Assembly (NCBI GenBank): GCA_017630215.1
Contig: JAGBVR010000007.1
Coordinates: 157,617-221,616, forward strand
Length of the DNA stretch: 64,000 bases
Source: Bacteroidales bacterium
Lineage (GTDB): Bacteria > Bacteroidota > Bacteroidia > Bacteroidales > UBA932
Direction: 5' to 3'
Position numbers and translations under genes: made by a program. Numbering within the stretch: position 1 is the stretch's first letter; every line of letters starts with the position of its first letter. The notes beneath the pieces are model-generated. The model was not told where the DNA came from. It was given only the letters and a program-made list of their open reading frames with translations, and searched no databases. Below, one piece after another: positions 4,099 through 39,789 of the stretch.

Positions 4099-4140
4099 TG
4101 TTTACGCCTTAACAGAAGTCTGTCCCCGGACCTCATTCGT

Positions 4141-4297
4141 TTGACTTGACTATGGCAGGTCTTCGGACTCATCTCCGCATTCTGCGCCTTCTCACAGTCC
4201 AAAGGCTGCAATGGCATGATGCAAGTGCGTTAAGAGATTTACCGCTGCGGGCACAGTTCCGGATTTGCACCGGATTCCCTTACTCCATAATCCCGGC
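4141..4297 (-). promoter_or_regulatory. Cobalamin riboswitch
   Basis: The reverse strand carries the conserved elements of the adenosylcobalamin riboswitch in the right order: CCGGTGCAAATCCGG, CTGTGCCCGC, GCGGTAA and the 3' element GAGTCCGAAGACCTGCC. It lies between a TAnnTTTG promoter and the btuB start codon. By family precedent, binding of cobalamin lowers expression of the downstream transport genes, here btuB and the short permease. The boundaries are approximate. Confidence 0.93.
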
Positions 4298-4298
4298 A

Positions 4299-4306
4299 CA
4301 AATATA
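4299..4306 (-). promoter_or_regulatory. -7 box for the btuB operon
   Basis: The reverse strand reads TATATTTG directly upstream of the riboswitch, placing the start of transcription at its 5' edge. Confidence 0.65.
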
Positions 4307-6124: not shown

Positions 6125-6796
6125 ATGAATATCTGGTTCATTATGATCGCCATCATGGTTCTGAGCTTCATCATCCAGCATATGTTGCAGAGCCGGTTCA
6201 ACAAGTATTCGAAAGTGGGCCTTCCCAACGGGATGTCTGGAGCTGAAGTTGCGCAGAAAATGCTACGTGACCACGGAATATATGACGTGAAGGTCGTACC
6301 CACAAACGGCATGCTCACAGACCACTTCAACCCTCAGACGAAAACCGTAGCCTTGAGTGAAGGTGTATATGCAAGCAGAAGCGTGGCTGCAGCTGCAGTA
6401 GCTGCTCACGAATGCGGACACGCAGTACAGCACGCCTACGGATATGCTCCTCTGAGAATGCGCTCAGCCCTCGTCCCTATGGTAAGCTTCGCATCCAATA
6501 TCGTACAATGGGTACTTCTTCTGGGAGTGATCATGATCAACAGCTTTCCGGGACTCCTGTGGTTCGGAATAATCCTTTTCGCGACCACAACCCTCTTCAG
6601 TTTCATCACCCTCCCTGTGGAGATCAATGCAAGCACCAGGGCCATCTCTTGGCTGACGCAGTCAGGAATCACCGACGCACAGACCCGCCCGATGGCTATC
6701 GATGCTCTCAAATGGGCAGCATATACTTATGTAGTGGCAGCACTCGGATCGCTTGCGACCCTTCTTTACTATATCGGACTTGCACGCAGAGACTGA
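6125..6796 (+). CDS. Neutral zinc metallopeptidase, YugP family
   Basis: This 223-residue membrane protein has an N-terminal helix, then AAHECGHAVQHAYGY, whose HExxH is the zinc-binding catalytic motif of the YugP-like family. Two or three further hydrophobic helices follow (WVLLLGVIMINSFPGLLWFG and AAYTYVVAALGSLATLLYYIG). The family also shows the conserved segment after residue 170 seen here as INASTRAISWL. Substrates are not well established; a role in membrane-protein turnover is likely. It is monocistronic and converges on the DUF4886 gene, with a repeat element between the two. Confidence 0.9.
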   Translation: MNIWFIMIAIMVLSFIIQHMLQSRFNKYSKVGLPNGMSGAEVAQKMLRDHGIYDVKVVPTNGMLTDHFNPQTKTVALSEGVYASRSVAAAAVAAHECGHAVQHAYGYAPLRMRSALVPMVSFASNIVQWVLLLGVIMINSFPGLLWFGIILFATTTLFSFITLPVEINASTRAISWLTQSGITDAQTRPMAIDALKWAAYTYVVAALGSLATLLYYIGLARRD

Positions 6797-6811: not shown

Positions 6812-6991
6812 AGCACTTGTTTTATATAAGCCAGCGGTAGAGATACCGGTGACCCCCGCCTCCCGAACATTCCTGCTGCCGCAGGCTGTTCGCTGCAAAA
6901 GCCCACTGGGCTGTTTGCCGAGTTGCTCACGACCCCTAGCCGAGGGTGGCATGTCACCTATATCTCTACCGCTGGCTTTAAAACAAGTGCT
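6812..6991. repeat. Palindromic element A with conserved core inside locus-specific arms
   Basis: The gap between two convergent genes is filled by an inverted repeat. The left arm (6812-6853) and right arm (6953-6991) pair over about 38 bases, including AAGCCAGCGGTAGAGATA and an outer AGCACTTGTTTT. Inside lie two blocks shared with element B at 39193-39306: 6843-6864 (22 of 22 identical) and 6933-6962 (29 of 30 identical, opposite orientation). About 70 bases between the blocks are unique to this copy and include a GCCCAGTGGGC-type hairpin. The outer arms differ completely from those of element B. It contains no credible ORF. Confidence 0.85.
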
Positions 6992-7002
6992 GACGGACCT
7001 GA

Positions 7003-7839
7003 TTATTTGATTTTAGTAATCTTCGACGGCTTCTTGACAGCCTTTCTTGCAGCCTTCTGCGCTGCCTTGCACTGCTCCGGAGTCATTCCCTCAGGACAGT
7101 AAGTATTGCCGATCGGATTCTTTCCAAGCACAGCCTGAAGCCAGGTACACGAAGCGACATATCTGCCGAAAGGCCTGCTCAGATGATATCCGTCACGTGT
7201 CAGGTCATCTCCAAGAATAGATGTTCTGGCATTCTGGATGGCGGTTCCGGAAGGTATGATGATCTTTATATCTTGTATCTGTGGCACTACCTCATTTACA
7301 GTAGCAATGATCGCATTATACATCTTCATCTGATCATTATCATACCTGTGATATTCCTTATGATTGGAATCCTTGGAATACGCCCATGTCTGATGGAACA
7401 TAAATACCACATCTTCTGGCACACGAGCCTTAACATACTCCACAAGTTCGGGAAGCTGTGCATATGTTTCAGGCTGTCCCGAATTAGGACTTGACTGCTG
7501 GAAAGAAACATAATCCCAGTCCTCATCTGCAAGACCGCGTTCCATTGTATAGCCATAATCGATGGTCCTTATCCCCTCTGCGTCGATCTTACGATACTCA
7601 TAGTCGGCAATGTTTCCACGAAGATTCCTTACATGTCTCTCGATCGAACATCCAGCTTTATAAATATTGCCGATTACGATTGTAAGACCTTCGGCTTTTG
7701 CTAACCCGTGCAGATGATCCTCGATGGCATCATCGGAGAAACTATTGCCGATGGCAAGAATCTTTATAGTATCATTCTGAGCCAGACAGAATATTGACGA
7801 AATCAAGAGTGCCGCCAGTAACAATAAAAACTTTTTCAT
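7003..7839 (-). CDS. Secreted DUF4886 (SGNH-like) protein
   Basis: After a signal peptide ending near CLAQ-21, the sequence ILAIGNSFSDDAIEDHL carries the GNSFS block of DUF4886, an SGNH-hydrolase-like family common in Bacteroidetes. A later DGYHLSRPFGRYVASC supplies the Asp and His expected for the catalytic set. The family is thought to act as an esterase on glycans or other exported substrates, but activity is unproven. The C-terminus is rich in Lys and Ala (KAAQKAARKAVKKPSKITK), which is unusual and could bind anionic surface polymers. It is the second gene of an operon, 5 bases after the M28 peptidase. Confidence 0.85.
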   Translation of the reverse strand: MKKFLLLLAALLISSIFCLAQNDTIKILAIGNSFSDDAIEDHLHGLAKAEGLTIVIGNIYKAGCSIERHVRNLRGNIADYEYRKIDAEGIRTIDYGYTMERGLADEDWDYVSFQQSSPNSGQPETYAQLPELVEYVKARVPEDVVFMFHQTWAYSKDSNHKEYHRYDNDQMKMYNAIIATVNEVVPQIQDIKIIIPSGTAIQNARTSILGDDLTRDGYHLSRPFGRYVASCTWLQAVLGKNPIGNTYCPEGMTPEQCKAAQKAARKAVKKPSKITKIK

Positions 7840-24113: not shown

Positions 24114-25061
24114 ATGGCAAGAAAAAACATCAGACTTGAAGCGATAGACCCGCTGGAAATATACGGCGCGGCAAACAAGAATCTTGAAGCATTATGCAGC
24201 TATTTCCCTGAATTGAAAGTAGTTGCGAGAGGTAATGAGATAATGCTCGAAGGAAAGGAAACGGATATCGAGGAGTTCGAAACAAAGGTGAAGATGCTTA
24301 TCGAGAGAAGGCATCATAAAATGAATATTACTCCTTATGATGTAGAGGATCTGTTTGACGGAGACATTTCGCCAGACAGGTTCAAGCTATGCGGCACTTC
24401 GGTGATTGTTCATGGCAATGACGGAAAACCTATCAAGGCCCGCAACCGCACTCAGGAAGAAATGGTAAAATCGTATTTTGAAAACGATCTCTTATTCGCT
24501 GTCGGACCGGCAGGAACAGGAAAGACATACATCGCCATAGCACTGGCGGTAAGAGCATTGAAGAACAGAGAAATCAAGAGGATCATACTCACCAGACCAG
24601 CAGTGGAAGCTGGAGAAAGGCTAGGTTTTCTTCCGGGCGACCTTAAGGACAAACTCGACCCATATCTCCAGCCTTTATACGATGCTCTTGGAGATATGAT
24701 TCCTGCAAAAAGACTCCAGGAATTCATGGCAGAAGGAACAATCCAGATTGCTCCTCTGGCATATATGAGAGGACGAACGCTTGACAGAGCATGCGTGATA
24801 CTTGATGAAGCCCAGAACACCAATCTGGGGCAGCTTAAGATGTTCCTGACCAGAATGGGATGCGACGCCAAATTCATCGTTACTGGCGATGCAAGCCAGA
24901 TAGACTTGCCGAATAAGAGAGACTCCGGTCTGTTGAGAGGTATAGAACTGACGAAAGACATCAAAGGCATCAAGACAATTTTCTTCAGGAATGAAGACAT
25001 AGTCCGACACCATTTGGTAGCAAAAATCGTCAAAGCATTCGAAAAAGGGGAAACGGTCTGA
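24114..25061 (+). CDS. PhoH family P-loop ATPase
   Basis: This 315-residue protein has an N-terminal KH-like region (about 1-90) and a PhoH ATPase domain. The Walker A is VGPAGTGKTYIA, followed by the family blocks LTRPAVEAGERLGFLPGDL and AYMRGRTL, and the Walker B VILDEAQNT. PhoH proteins are cytosolic ATPases linked to RNA metabolism and ribosome biogenesis. The terminator hairpin begins inside the last codons of this gene. Confidence 0.93.
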   Translation: MARKNIRLEAIDPLEIYGAANKNLEALCSYFPELKVVARGNEIMLEGKETDIEEFETKVKMLIERRHHKMNITPYDVEDLFDGDISPDRFKLCGTSVIVHGNDGKPIKARNRTQEEMVKSYFENDLLFAVGPAGTGKTYIAIALAVRALKNREIKRIILTRPAVEAGERLGFLPGDLKDKLDPYLQPLYDALGDMIPAKRLQEFMAEGTIQIAPLAYMRGRTLDRACVILDEAQNTNLGQLKMFLTRMGCDAKFIVTGDASQIDLPNKRDSGLLRGIELTKDIKGIKTIFFRNEDIVRHHLVAKIVKAFEKGETV

Positions 25062-25075
25062 CCGTTTCCCCTTTT
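25043..25075. terminator. Bidirectional terminator between phoH and the TPR gene
   Basis: A perfect 15-bp stem (AAAAGGGGAAACGGT with ACCGTTTCCCCTTTT) closes on a 3-base loop. A- and T-runs on both sides let it work on either strand, for the two convergent genes. Its left arm overlaps the phoH 3' end. Confidence 0.9.
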
Positions 25076-33509: not shown

Positions 33510-34466
33510 ATGATACGTAAATTATTGATCATCGCAGCAATAACAATGGCTGGAATCACAAGTGAAGCTATGCTGGCCCAGGAGCACAGCATAACCCCAG
33601 ATGGTACATACCTTTTTGTCCAAAGAGATACGTGTGATCTTTTTCTGGATGTATATAACCCTTCTGCAGGAAGCAAAACCAAAGCATTCGGAATAGAAAA
33701 GCCGACAGTGATATTCATGTTCGGAGGAGGATTCATCGGAGGAACAAGAGACAACGTGGATTATCACAAATGGTTCAGACTGATGACAGAAAACGGCTAC
33801 AGGGTGATTTCCATCGACTACCGTTTAGGACTCAAAGGATCGGACAAAGTAGGAGTAGCGCAGGTAAATGTCCTGGACAAGGCTATCCATATGGCTGTAG
33901 AAGATCTCTTCAGCGCTACCAACTTTATCATCGACAATGCCGACCAACTCGGAGTAAGCCCGGACAATATTGTAATCAGCGGCTCCTCAGCAGGTGCAAT
34001 CACAGCAATGCAGGCGGAATATGAAATCGCAAACAATACAGCATGGGCATCTGTTCTTCCTGAAGGCTTCAATTATGCAGGTGTAATGTCATTCTCGGGC
34101 GCGATACTTTCAAGAGAAGGCAAGGTGGACTTCAAGAAAGACCCATGCCCGACAATGATGCTGCACGGTACAGCAGACAAACTCGTGCCATACAAGCAGA
34201 TAAAACTCTTCAATCTCGGATTCTTCGGAGCAGGAAAGCTGGTGGAGAGATTCAAGAAATACGGTCTCAACTACAACATGTATCACTTCAACGATTACGG
34301 CCATGAGATCGCAGGGTCAATGGACACGACGCTTGACCTTCAGATCAAGTTCCTGGAAACCAATGTAATGCAGAAGAAGATGAGAATTGTGGAAGCATGG
34401 ATCGACGACCCTGATGTCTATAAAGGCTCAGGCCCTCAGTCCAGAAAAGAACTATACGGCAAATAA
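33510..34466 (+). CDS. Secreted alpha/beta-hydrolase, esterase-like
   Basis: After a signal peptide (about 1-23), the protein shows an oxyanion-hole segment FMFGGGFIGG, the nucleophile elbow SGSSAGAI (GxSxG), an acid candidate in HGTADKLVPY and the catalytic His in DYGHEIAGS. This fits the carboxylesterase branch of alpha/beta-hydrolases. The likely role is removal of acyl groups from glycans or lipids. It ends in a strong bidirectional terminator. Confidence 0.88.
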   Translation: MIRKLLIIAAITMAGITSEAMLAQEHSITPDGTYLFVQRDTCDLFLDVYNPSAGSKTKAFGIEKPTVIFMFGGGFIGGTRDNVDYHKWFRLMTENGYRVISIDYRLGLKGSDKVGVAQVNVLDKAIHMAVEDLFSATNFIIDNADQLGVSPDNIVISGSSAGAITAMQAEYEIANNTAWASVLPEGFNYAGVMSFSGAILSREGKVDFKKDPCPTMMLHGTADKLVPYKQIKLFNLGFFGAGKLVERFKKYGLNYNMYHFNDYGHEIAGSMDTTLDLQIKFLETNVMQKKMRIVEAWIDDPDVYKGSGPQSRKELYGK

Positions 34467-34502
34467 AAGTGAAGGCGGTTTATGAAAACCGCCTTCACTT
34501 TT
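34465..34502. terminator. Bidirectional terminator between the esterase and uridine phosphorylase genes
   Basis: A perfect 17-bp stem (AAAAGTGAAGGCGGTTT with AAACCGCCTTCACTTTT) with a 4-base loop overlaps both convergent stop codons. A and T ends make it active on both strands. Confidence 0.9.
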
Positions 34503-35376
34503 ATTCTGCCAGCTTATCAAGTACGAGCTCTACAAGCTTTCTGACCTGAGGCTTGTAGTCCGGATTACTTGCCTTATGGTGTCTGTGCGCAATGATGCAG
34601 CAGACTGTTCCCGCATTATGGCCAAGATGCGCAGCAATTCCGGCAATCGCCGAACCTTCCATCTCAAAGTTAGTCACTTTCAAATCATCGAATCTGAACG
34701 ACTCAAACGTATCAAGCATATCAGGCATCGCGAGAGGCATTCTGATCACTCGTCCTTGAGGACCATAGAAACCGGAAGCGGCTACTGTCATCCCCGGCAC
34801 CGTGCAATCCCTGAAAAGCTCCGACATTTTCTCTCCAGCCTTGACAAAATAAGGATCCGGAAGATGCTTGTTCCAGCCCGTATGTTCCTTGAAAGCTTCT
34901 TCTATGTCAGGAAGGGCTATCTTTTCACGGTCAGCATACCAGTTCAACAAGCCATCGCAACCTATCGATATATGCGAGAAGACAAATGCCCCAAGAGGAA
35001 TTTCCGGCTGGATGGCACCGGAAGTACCGATTCGTATGATATTTAAAGAACGATGCTCCGGTTTTACCTCGCGAGTTTCGAAGTCAACATTTGCGAGAGC
35101 ATCAAGCTCGTTCATGACAATGTCGATATTGTCAGTACCTATACCTGTAGAAAGTGCAGTTATCCTTACCCCCTTATATTTACCGGTTACTGATACAAAC
35201 TCACGTGAAGAATGTCTGAATTCCTTCTCGTCAAAATATTCCGCAATCATATCGACACGGCCGGGATCTCCGACTAGAATGACATTGTCAGCGAGCTCCT
35301 CCGGACGAAGGTGAAGATGGAACACCGATCCGTCTCCATTGATTATAAGTTCTGATTCTGGTATTTTCATACTCAA
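34501..35376 (-). CDS. udp: Nucleoside phosphorylase, uridine phosphorylase type
   Basis: This 291-residue cytosolic enzyme belongs to the PNP/UDP family. Motifs in order are ILVGDPGRVD (phosphate binding), LSTGIGTDNID, IRIGTSGAIQ and NFEMEGSAIAG, whose Glu-Met-Glu contacts the ribose. It should phosphorolyse uridine or a related nucleoside to the base and ribose-1-phosphate. Base specificity is inferred from family resemblance. The gene has its own promoter and is divergent from the DUF4293 gene. Confidence 0.88.
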   Translation of the reverse strand: MSMKIPESELIINGDGSVFHLHLRPEELADNVILVGDPGRVDMIAEYFDEKEFRHSSREFVSVTGKYKGVRITALSTGIGTDNIDIVMNELDALANVDFETREVKPEHRSLNIIRIGTSGAIQPEIPLGAFVFSHISIGCDGLLNWYADREKIALPDIEEAFKEHTGWNKHLPDPYFVKAGEKMSELFRDCTVPGMTVAASGFYGPQGRVIRMPLAMPDMLDTFESFRFDDLKVTNFEMEGSAIAGIAAHLGHNAGTVCCIIAHRHHKASNPDYKPQVRKLVELVLDKLAE

Positions 35377-38301: not shown

Positions 38302-39195
38302 ATGTTTTTGAAAGATAAGATTCCTGGATATCTGCTTGGAAAATACCAACTGATCGGTACAGTTACCTTCTCTGTTCTGTTTGCTGTGGTATTCCTCAAT
38401 ATATATATACCATTTTCAGATACAGCATGGTTCGGACTTGGAGATTCATCAATGTTCGCACTTACTGTCATATTCGTTGCAGTATCTATTATGACCTTGA
38501 TTGCCAGTCGTATGATGATGTATAAGATCAAGAGTCTTTTCGACATCAATTACGGCGAGTATATAATATGGTGTCTTCTGGAAATCATCACAATCTGTGG
38601 TTTTTACACTGGCCTGACTATGGGGCATGATCTACCTCAGAGTGAAACTGGCTGGGAAGTATTCGGGAGGGCGATGCTATATGGAACGATTGCGCTTGGG
38701 ATACCATATCTGATTTCTGGAATGTACTTCGCGATCATTGACAAGAACAATACCATCAGACTGATGAATTTCGAGAACGTCGTGACAGACGAGCCGGCAA
38801 AGCCGGAAGCCCAGACTAACAAAATCACTCTTTTCGACAACAGCGGTGCCTTGAAATTATCTCTGAATCCGGAAAACCTATACTACATCGAGTCCGACGA
38901 CAATTATATTAAAGTCTGGTACACGGACAATAAGACCGAACTGAAACAATATATGCTACGCTGCCGTCTGAAAACAGTCGAAGAAAGTTTCAGAGGAGCA
39001 GGACTTGTCCGATGCAACAGAAAATATATTGTCAATATAAACAAGGTCGCTACATTAAGAAAAGAAAGTGACGGTTATGTTCTGGACCTGGCCAATGAAG
39101 CCATACCGCCACTTCCCGTAACAAAGACCTATACAGATAACGTACTAAGCTACTTCACTGAGGTACAGCCACTTATGGATCCTATCGAGGAATAA
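38302..39195 (+). CDS. Membrane-anchored LytTR-domain regulator
   Basis: Residues 1-155 hold four hydrophobic helices. A linker follows and residues 175-285 form a LytTR DNA-binding domain (LNPENLYYIESDDNYIKVWY, RCRLKTVEESF, LVRCNRKYIVNINKV). It lacks a receiver domain, so the membrane part is probably the sensor. Its targets and signal are unknown. The stop codon lies within the left arm of repeat element B. Confidence 0.87.
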   Translation: MFLKDKIPGYLLGKYQLIGTVTFSVLFAVVFLNIYIPFSDTAWFGLGDSSMFALTVIFVAVSIMTLIASRMMMYKIKSLFDINYGEYIIWCLLEIITICGFYTGLTMGHDLPQSETGWEVFGRAMLYGTIALGIPYLISGMYFAIIDKNNTIRLMNFENVVTDEPAKPEAQTNKITLFDNSGALKLSLNPENLYYIESDDNYIKVWYTDNKTELKQYMLRCRLKTVEESFRGAGLVRCNRKYIVNINKVATLRKESDGYVLDLANEAIPPLPVTKTYTDNVLSYFTEVQPLMDPIEE

Positions 39196-39306
39196 TATAC
39201 ATAAAGCAACCGTTGGTATATAGGTGACATGCCACCCCCGGCTAGGGGGTGCCTCCCGGCAGGGAGGCGGGGGTCACCGGTATACCAACGGTTGCTTTGT
39301 ATATTA
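39193..39306. repeat. Palindromic element B with conserved core inside locus-specific arms
   Basis: Outer arms (39193-39228 and 39273-39306) pair over about 33 bases, including AAGCAACCGTTGGTATA. Inside are two small perfect hairpins, CACCCCC/GGGGGTG and CCTCCC/GGGAGG. The blocks 39219-39248 and 39262-39283 match element A (6812-6991) almost exactly, in the opposite orientation relative to the window. The outer arms of A and B have unrelated sequences but each is self-complementary. It fills the gap between two convergent genes and has no coding potential of its own. Confidence 0.87.
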
Positions 39307-39312
39307 CGACTA

Positions 39313-39789
39313 TCAGTCCTCAAGTTCACATCCGGTAAAGAAGAAATCACTTTCCGCCTTTTCCTTCGTGAAGCAATAATATGTCATTTCGCACATTGAA
39401 CAGACCTGGCCTTCGCAGCTGAGAGAAGCCTCGATAAAGGCGAAATTTCTTTTGATCTCCTTAATGCGGCCTCTGATCTCGACAGTCACTCCTTCGCCCG
39501 TAGGAACCGGACGACGGTACTTCATCCGTAGATCGGTCGTCATTCCGGCCGTCTGAAGCTTCCGGTTCACAATCCAGCCACCTAGTTCATCCATCAGCGT
39601 AGCCTGGATGCCACCGTGAAGAGTCTTGAGCCAGCCCTGATAATTGTCAGTTGAATTCCAAATACAGACCAGGTCATCCCCATCCTCATAGAACTCCATC
39701 TTGAGTCCAGCCGGATTATCCGGACAGCAGGCAAAGCAGTTATAACCTTGTGACTGCAGGCCCAGATATGGGTTGCGGATTTTCTTCAT
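39313..39789 (-). CDS. PaaI-type hotdog thioesterase
   Basis: This 158-residue protein has the hotdog-fold core LKTLHGGIQATLMDELGGW, with the HGG and Asp/Glu of the acyl-CoA thioesterase family, followed by MKYRRPVPTGEGVTV. It carries an N-terminal Cys cluster (YNCFACCPDNPAGL) and a CSMCEM near the C-terminus, seen in some Bacteroidetes members. The substrate is not known. Its ATG overlaps the prfA stop (TAATG), so the two are coupled. Confidence 0.87.
   Translation of the reverse strand: MKKIRNPYLGLQSQGYNCFACCPDNPAGLKMEFYEDGDDLVCIWNSTDNYQGWLKTLHGGIQATLMDELGGWIVNRKLQTAGMTTDLRMKYRRPVPTGEGVTVEIRGRIKEIKRNFAFIEASLSCEGQVCSMCEMTYYCFTKEKAESDFFFTGCELED

Follow-up and report, generated by a model that had tools for sequence, protein, structure and literature searches.

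Palindromic repeats with a shared core and private arms at gene ends in gut Bacteroidales

Described palindromic repeats and the present family

REPs of the GTAG and CGTC families are palindromic, intergenic sequences found mostly in tandem or convergent gaps downstream of coding regions, with some inside genes, and some are themselves held inside longer palindromes, as with GTAG-15 of A. variabilis, GTAG-23 of T. roseum and CGTC-1 of H. neapolitanus (PMC3733652, in the accessible part of that account). The element described here, two copies of which (A and B) lie in the window, the whole stretch of 64,000 nucleotides that was analysed, resembles the REPs in its position after stop codons, in having some copies in genes, in its patchy bursts and in being a palindrome within a palindrome. 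It also differs from them, as REPs are given as 20-40 bp long with enclosing palindromes that have a consensus (PMC3733652, same part), whereas the present core measures about 50-110 nt and each locus has its own private arms. In the copies inspected by eye the motif at the foot of REPs, GTAG/GGAG (or CGTC), is absent and no constant tetranucleotide stands at the foot of the outer stem; the core boundary, again by eye, has GGA or GTA beside a variable triplet, with cores of about 50 nt or more. REP copies flank their cognate RAYT gene, and no such arrangement was found in 40 Y1 loci, which come from incomplete genomes. As both the foot motif and the flanking of RAYT genes are lacking, the element is not filed here as a REP.

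A second group, the Rickettsia palindromic elements (RPE), is described as lying in-frame in the ORFs of proteins that are likely functional (PMC3733652, accessible part). The likeness is that the present element also has in-frame copies inside ORFs in addition to those in spacers. RPEs too occur between genes. Private arms, inversion of the core and replacement of the core are not described for RPEs in the accessible part of that account (PMC3733652), and in this the present element differs from them. Nor does it answer to a MITE, which has fixed terminal inverted repeats, a target-site duplication and a cognate transposase; arm sequence differs between most unrelated loci, with some pairs sharing inner arms, and no constant duplication was seen.

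Template switching provides a further comparison; in short inverted repeats with a spacer it is reported to homogenise the arms and invert the spacer (PMC8604942), and it is able both to give rise to hairpins and to preserve them (PMC8794818). The two effects, on arms and on spacer, match changes seen here, but template switching is a mutation process rather than an element, it has been described in yeast and in RNA genes, and the accessible parts of these descriptions mention no repeat family carried in the spacer (PMC8604942, PMC8794818). Lastly, subclass 2.6 of the TnpA-REP (RAYT) proteins, from Bacteroidetes, is noted for 'atypical secondary structures' in the accessible text (PMC6006769). 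The phylum is the same and Y1 proteins, counted without regard to subclass, are present in all 14 element-bearing genomes, whereas several of the Y1 loci here carry other palindromes of their own (20 flanks read). In the literature covered, which was mostly open-access, no description was found of the present family or of private-arm hairpins with exchangeable cores.

The reading preferred here, with moderate confidence, is that of a non-autonomous palindromic repeat, similar to REPs and RPEs, in which template switching keeps the arms matched and flips the core, and which slippage can delete.

Elements A and B and the wider family

The two elements have a common core, GACATGCCACCCCCGGCTAGGGGGTGCC..GGCGGGGGTC, set in arms that have no resemblance between the loci and are each self-complementary. 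Compared by eye, block 6843-6864 of A is the reverse complement of the end of B (22/22) and block 6933-6962 is identical to B at 29/30 positions. Two shared blocks, unrelated yet self-paired arms and a convergent setting had all been put forward in a preliminary description of this DNA, and each is borne out, with A lying between convergent ORFs whose ends are 6796 and 7003 and B between ORFs whose ends are 39195 and 39313 (Table 1). Inverted-repeat detection pairs 6828-6853 with 6953-6978 in A (92%) and, core included, 39197-39249 with 39252-39304 in B (74%). When folded as single-stranded DNA the minus strand of A has z = -12.7 and the two strands of B z = -11.5 and -9.6, with 0/200 shuffles as good in each case.

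Table 1. Features of the window, with loci that hold palindromes of a second core family
Feature	Position or locus	Strand	Remarks
Left neighbour of A, Zn_peptidase_2 family	6125..6796	+	Pfam PF04298, E 1.1e-86
A outermost left arm	6812..6824	.	Pairs with 6979-6991
A left arm	6828..6845	.	AAGCCAGCG part common to plain hairpin of G359 orthologous gap
A core	6846..6955	- (core-sense)	CC internal-loop motif, GGT, GACCCCC...CATGTC; model R1 match
A extra module	6865..6932	-	Replaces most of hairpin 2; boundaries approximate
A right arm	6956..6978	.	Complementary to left arm
A outermost right arm	6979..6991	.	
Right neighbour of A, convergent, DUF4886 family	7003..7839	-	PF16227, E 1e-98
Plain perfect 16-bp hairpin without core	25043..25075	.	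End of ORF 24114-25061
Plain perfect 20-bp hairpin without core	34462..34505	.	Between ORFs 33510-34466 (+) and 34501-35376 (-)
Left neighbour of B, LytTR-domain protein	38302..39195	+	PF04397, E 6.8e-12
B left arm as modelled by R1	39204..39219	.	Stem extends outward to about 39193
B core GACATGCCACCCCCGGCTAGGGGGTGCCTCCCGGCAGGGAGGCGGGGGTC	39226..39275	+	104.1 bits
B right arm	39282..39297	.	Stem extends outward to about 39306
Right neighbour of B, convergent, 4HBT thioesterase family	39313..39789	-	PF03061, E 7.8e-11
Palindromes of the second core family, private-arm layout	L108, L140, L143, L335, L352, L364, L382, L488, L517, L534		

A covariance model (R1) of 95 columns was made by aligning eight copies from this MAG, B among them and A not; B scores 104.1 bits, whilst on A the match spans 6829-6977 of the minus strand with 62.2 bits. 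The model runs from an arm through GGA, three paired variable bases, GAC and an unpaired ATGC to a CACCCCC-GGCTA-GGGGGTG hairpin. Beyond it come another hairpin, which is variable, a run of unpaired bases, GTC, three bases that pair, GGA and the other arm. The predicted fold of the core is a three-way junction, which a symmetric GGA/GGA internal loop and a stem of ~16-22 bp close off. Across the eight copies 60 cells are changed on both sides of a pair, compared with 18.3 in shuffles (0/500 reach it), and the arm pairs covary strongly; by these scores and changes the element is far beyond chance. The inner part of A is a longer variant, with an extra module of ~65 nt (..CAGCAAACAGCCCAGTGGGCTTTTGCAGCGAACAGCCTGCGGxAGCAGG..) at about 6865-6932. 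Among module-bearing copies the module is found at hairpin 2 in A and 6/7 others, and in hairpin 1 in L003/L167. The module of A was also seen inside a CATTCTGAG...GAGAATC palindrome (L004 around 1513-1600, which is C45:116187 of the genome that holds the window). We take this palindrome to be a widespread bacterial repeat, and translations like CHSERSEES of GAGAATC-type repeats occur in MurB-like linkers.

Elsewhere in the window, the hairpin structure of two plain hairpins that had been placed at 25043-25075 and 34465-34502 is confirmed (Table 1). A scan for consensus terminators, limited to loops of 3-8 and blind to filled hairpins, gave none at A, and no family of Rfam 15 reached its gathering score over the element in the window. 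Six loci searched at E up to 1 gave a single sub-threshold Rfam match, rox2, which was judged an unrelated chance match. A Cobalamin riboswitch (RF00174, 90.6 bits) lies at 4137-4304 on the minus strand.

The search of the genome and its relatives with a covariance model, a step that the preliminary description had proposed, yielded many further copies, and the earlier two-copy picture stands as to layout, but the family is far larger. The MAG from which the window comes (2.26 Mb, 58% completeness) has 17 model rows, which fall at 16 distinct places; at one place the match is weak (E 0.008). Within the genus the model matches 14/61 genomes, this one included, with a patchy distribution and up to 23 copies per genome, and at the family level, with a stricter cut-off, 8/199 genomes and 4/25 genera. 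The related MAGs are Bacteroidales; ruminant guts are the source of the nearest ones, and the more distant matches include Candidatus Cryptobacteroides. The copies studied number 89, from eight of the 14 element-bearing genomes, after 10 opposite-strand duplicates of listed copies were removed from 99 model matches. Hairpin 2 of the type I core is largely genome-specific, most clearly in G007 and G024, the latter with more than one form, which points to bursts of spread.

By context, assigned with a simple longest-ORF script instead of a gene finder, 24 of the 89 copies are convergent, 42 tandem, one divergent, 18 within ORFs and four undecided. Of the tandem copies 37/42 begin within 20 nt after the upstream stop (median 5.5), against 10/42 that lie as close to the downstream start. 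In 44/60 oriented cases the core-sense strand runs antisense to the host gene (p 0.0004). With 18/89 copies within ORFs, terminators are not the sole location. These copies, among them a probable chance ORF (L131) and a degenerate copy (L166), read in-frame in genes for unrelated proteins, and all six hosts run in Pfam could be named: MurB, a PrmC-like methyltransferase, an ArgC-like semialdehyde dehydrogenase, a radical SAM protein, shikimate kinase and SufBD. Some of the palindromes would be translated inside murB-, prmC- and shikimate-kinase-like genes. In the PrmC-like genes (L256, L257, L258, L283, L282) one linker holds different palindromic inserts by species, and in G006 it holds another repeat; with inserts so varied the linker looks like a hotspot.

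The same gaps in related genomes

The family is more dynamic than the two copies in the window reveal. Thirteen intergenic sites of the genome were sought in 14 relatives, some of which yielded only part of the sites, and the gap of B was examined in named contigs. The closest relative among the matches listed, with two candidates scored per genome, is G359, taken to be MAG cow4.3. Of the 14 sites (the 13 and B), five carry the element in G359 (sites 1, 2, 5, 9 and 12). Others are plain hairpins, whose arms are the same as here at A and site 4, similar at B and different at sites 3 and 11. Site 7 has a hairpin with another core family, and sites 6, 8 and 10 lack a hairpin. At site 9 of G359 a palindrome of another type was observed beside the element.

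In the gap of A, G359 reads AAGCCAGCG-GTATATAT-CGCTGGCTT, a plain hairpin, where A itself reads AAGCCAGCG-(GTAGAGATACC..core..TATATCTCTAC)-CGCTGGCTT, and by eye this empty site has no pair matching the outermost arm of A. Site 4 of G359 reads AAAAAATACTGACCG-ATATAC-CGGTCAGTATTTTTT, with arms as in the genome studied. The letters of the shared arms were compared with random windows, and both cases are clear (A, 12 letters, 2/3000; site 4, 24 letters, 0/3000). At B the longest run shared with the G359 hairpin is 6, in the left arm, which 1306/3000 random windows equal and which is not significant, the similarity there resting on AAAGCARCC/GGYTGCTTT as seen by eye. No model match was found for A in 14 other orthologous loci listed, in many of which the neighbouring gene differs. 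The gap of B has the element in 1/80 loci (L443), in the same orientation and with related arms, and the convergent neighbour is kept in 14/42 loci read, in one of them only in part.

Cores have also been turned around. Among the matches listed, the core is flipped with recognisably kept arms at sites 1 and 5 (G000/G359) and site 10 (G000/G039), and unflipped at sites 9 and 12, at B (L443) and in L113/L144 and L137/L147. Further flips are found against other species at sites 2, 4, 5, 6 and 9 at least, and against G359 at site 2; in all of these the arms are unrelated or unclear and the flips could be independent events. In addition, a pattern scan of the fetched loci gave ten more palindromes, whose arms are private, perfect and 13-26 bp long and whose core differs (Table 1). 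In this second family the core reads CRTGGCCGCCCGTGG... or CCGTGCTACCCCT..., and close to the right end comes GGGAGGGATT or a sequence much like it. At least 7/10 of these palindromes occupy orthologues of type I sites (site 2 in G056/G007, site 6 in G026/G511, site 7 in G026/G359/G424). Orthologous gaps that differ in this way between species, with empty, flipped and replaced states, lead to the rejection of purely vertical descent with identical arms and core, the state of affairs that the preliminary description had set against its own reading. Its placing of the core inside the loop of gene-end hairpins, with plain hairpins in orthologous gaps, does hold at A and site 4, with a similar case at B.

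That description went on to suggest a mobile element that attacks hairpins as single strands. On such a reading the element recognises the loop of an existing terminator hairpin in its single-stranded form and places its core exactly there, the arms being the stem of the old terminator. The core in the loop, the empty sites of G359, the lack of a model match at A in the other orthologous loci, the close following of upstream stops and the other cores at type I site orthologues would all be as expected. So would the extra module found in different core hairpins, and the inner arms that, among the matches listed, L171/L162 and L129/L135 have in common inside outer arms that are private yet complementary. 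Other observations weigh against it. The intragenic copies do not sit in terminators, and in G039 the PrmC linker without an insert is short and has no comparable hairpin. No target motif is constant and no duplication is constant by eye. The empty loops themselves, GTATATAT at A and ATATAC before CGGT at site 4, resemble the inner arm of the element, and since they look like inner-arm remnants both sites may be losses rather than virgin targets. A deletion between two copies of CGGT in the G000 sequence of site 4 yields the stem and loop of G359 exactly, and a collapsed core, GGTGACATGCCACC, was left between good arms at site 9 in G519. The direction of change is here read from such footprints rather than from a dated tree. 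Given the loop footprints and the intragenic copies, pure insertion into virgin terminators is set aside, and as slippage fits the empty sites an element that attacks hairpins is possible but rather unlikely.

A related proposal, considered unlikely, is a class of small mobile DNA in which exchangeable cores (type I/II, GACATGCC..., type III, CRTGGCCGCCCGTGG..., other types too) settle in whatever hairpin loop is stable, entering and leaving terminator loops as single-stranded DNA in either orientation. If true, bacterial terminators would be docking sites for a pool of exchangeable cassettes.

Upkeep of the arms and the spreading step

Arm pairing in intergenic copies is ~0.9 midway along the stem and has dropped to background at about 22 bp, and the pattern in intragenic copies is similar but weaker. 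Towards its outer end the stem is enriched in A in the left arm and in T in the right arm, a bias that would be expected of a two-way terminator, the putative function of these stems. In ten hand-chosen comparisons of homologous arms, with site 12 entered three times, 18 positions are changed on both sides, 6 of them as double transversions, and 30 are broken on one side. At sites 2, 3 and 11 the arms are unrelated between G000 and G359, and arm turnover therefore appears faster than simple homogenisation of drift suggests.

On the preferred reading, that of a REP- and RPE-like repeat, the element would spread in bursts and settle where extra hairpins are tolerated, that is just past stop codons, in or as the stem of a terminator, and in permissive protein linkers. 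Template switching between the arms during replication would then preserve their complementarity as they drift, without any need for selection, which would make the arms private, and it would also invert the core between them. Slippage between short direct repeats may remove the core and leave a plain hairpin, whilst the spreading step is perhaps carried out by a Y1/HUH transposase acting on the single-stranded hairpin. We infer template switching as the cause because it accounts for arms that are private but paired, for the double transversions (6/18 double changes) and for core flips in one step; slippage between short repeats would likewise account for the near-perfect loss of the core.

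A conserved core in private, well-paired arms is normally taken as proof of a selected RNA structure, and in the present family that pattern is accompanied by empty sites, by cores turned around and by cores replaced with others. It is quite improbable that the family is a structured RNA at mRNA ends, selected for example for processing, stability or protein binding, in which only the pairing of the arms matters. The conserved core, the covarying arms, the 3'-end location and the A-left/T-right enrichment of the outer stem are consistent with such a role. The residual mismatches of the arms point the same way, as in the core-sense strand G-T exceeds A-C in 28 elements versus 2, with totals of 57 to 14, scored in 68 of the 89 copies with orthologues retained and copies near contig ends or with more than four other mismatches excluded. 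This asymmetry suggests a role for pairing of the core-sense strand, either as RNA or as single-stranded DNA, and it counts against the preferred explanation, as plain template switching does not predict it. Against an RNA stand the frequent antisense orientation of the core-sense strand to the host gene, the 18 copies in ORFs, the presence and absence, inversion and replacement between species, and the absence of any Rfam match to the element in the window that reaches the gathering score. The family thus offers many natural replicates in which to ask how much 'compensatory' covariation comes from template switching and how much from selection.

A different origin of the arms is hinted at by site 10, where in G039 arms of 26 bp reach past the stop to the final codons (TTC CGA TAA), and other species have this coding end too. 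As these arms span the stop codon, the best reading of one of them is that it copies host DNA in inverted form, and in G000 the left arm of site 10 resembles the start of the next gene. It might be proposed from this that insertion copies about 20 nt of host DNA in inverted form, the arms being inverted duplications made from the target. This is very improbable, as at A and site 4 the empty sequence already has both arms, the G359 state of site 10 also fits a deletion between two ATGGCA repeats, and template switching lengthens arms in a like manner.

As to what spreads the element, Y1_Tnp is present in 46/61 genomes, in 14/14 of those that bear the element and 32/47 of the others (Fisher p 0.014, with relatedness uncontrolled). 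RAYT-type Y1 proteins are candidates by presence alone. The preliminary description had advised a search for target duplications and for a transposase acting in trans; neither was pinned down, with no constant duplication and no constant target motif seen by eye. Forty Y1 loci were fetched from element-bearing genomes, in most cases with some 2 kb of flank to either side, the genomes being incomplete and some loci ending with their contig. In one of them there is a strong R1 match, roughly 3 kb away from the Y1 gene, and L247 has a weak hairpin match of 36 nt (E 0.33). RAYT as a direct partner is rejected, as Y1_Tnp is also found in 32/47 of the genomes without the element and several of the 20 loci with flanks read carry other palindromes.

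The pattern of empty sites, inverted cores and replacements also suggests that, in gut Bacteroidales, hairpins at the ends of genes are hotspots of small selfish palindromes. Within L216-L235 several Y1 genes are flanked by short palindromes of their own, different from the present element, for example GAAAATGCTTGCTGC..GCAAGCATTTT in G056, and in that genome one such palindrome is found at the orthologue of site 7.
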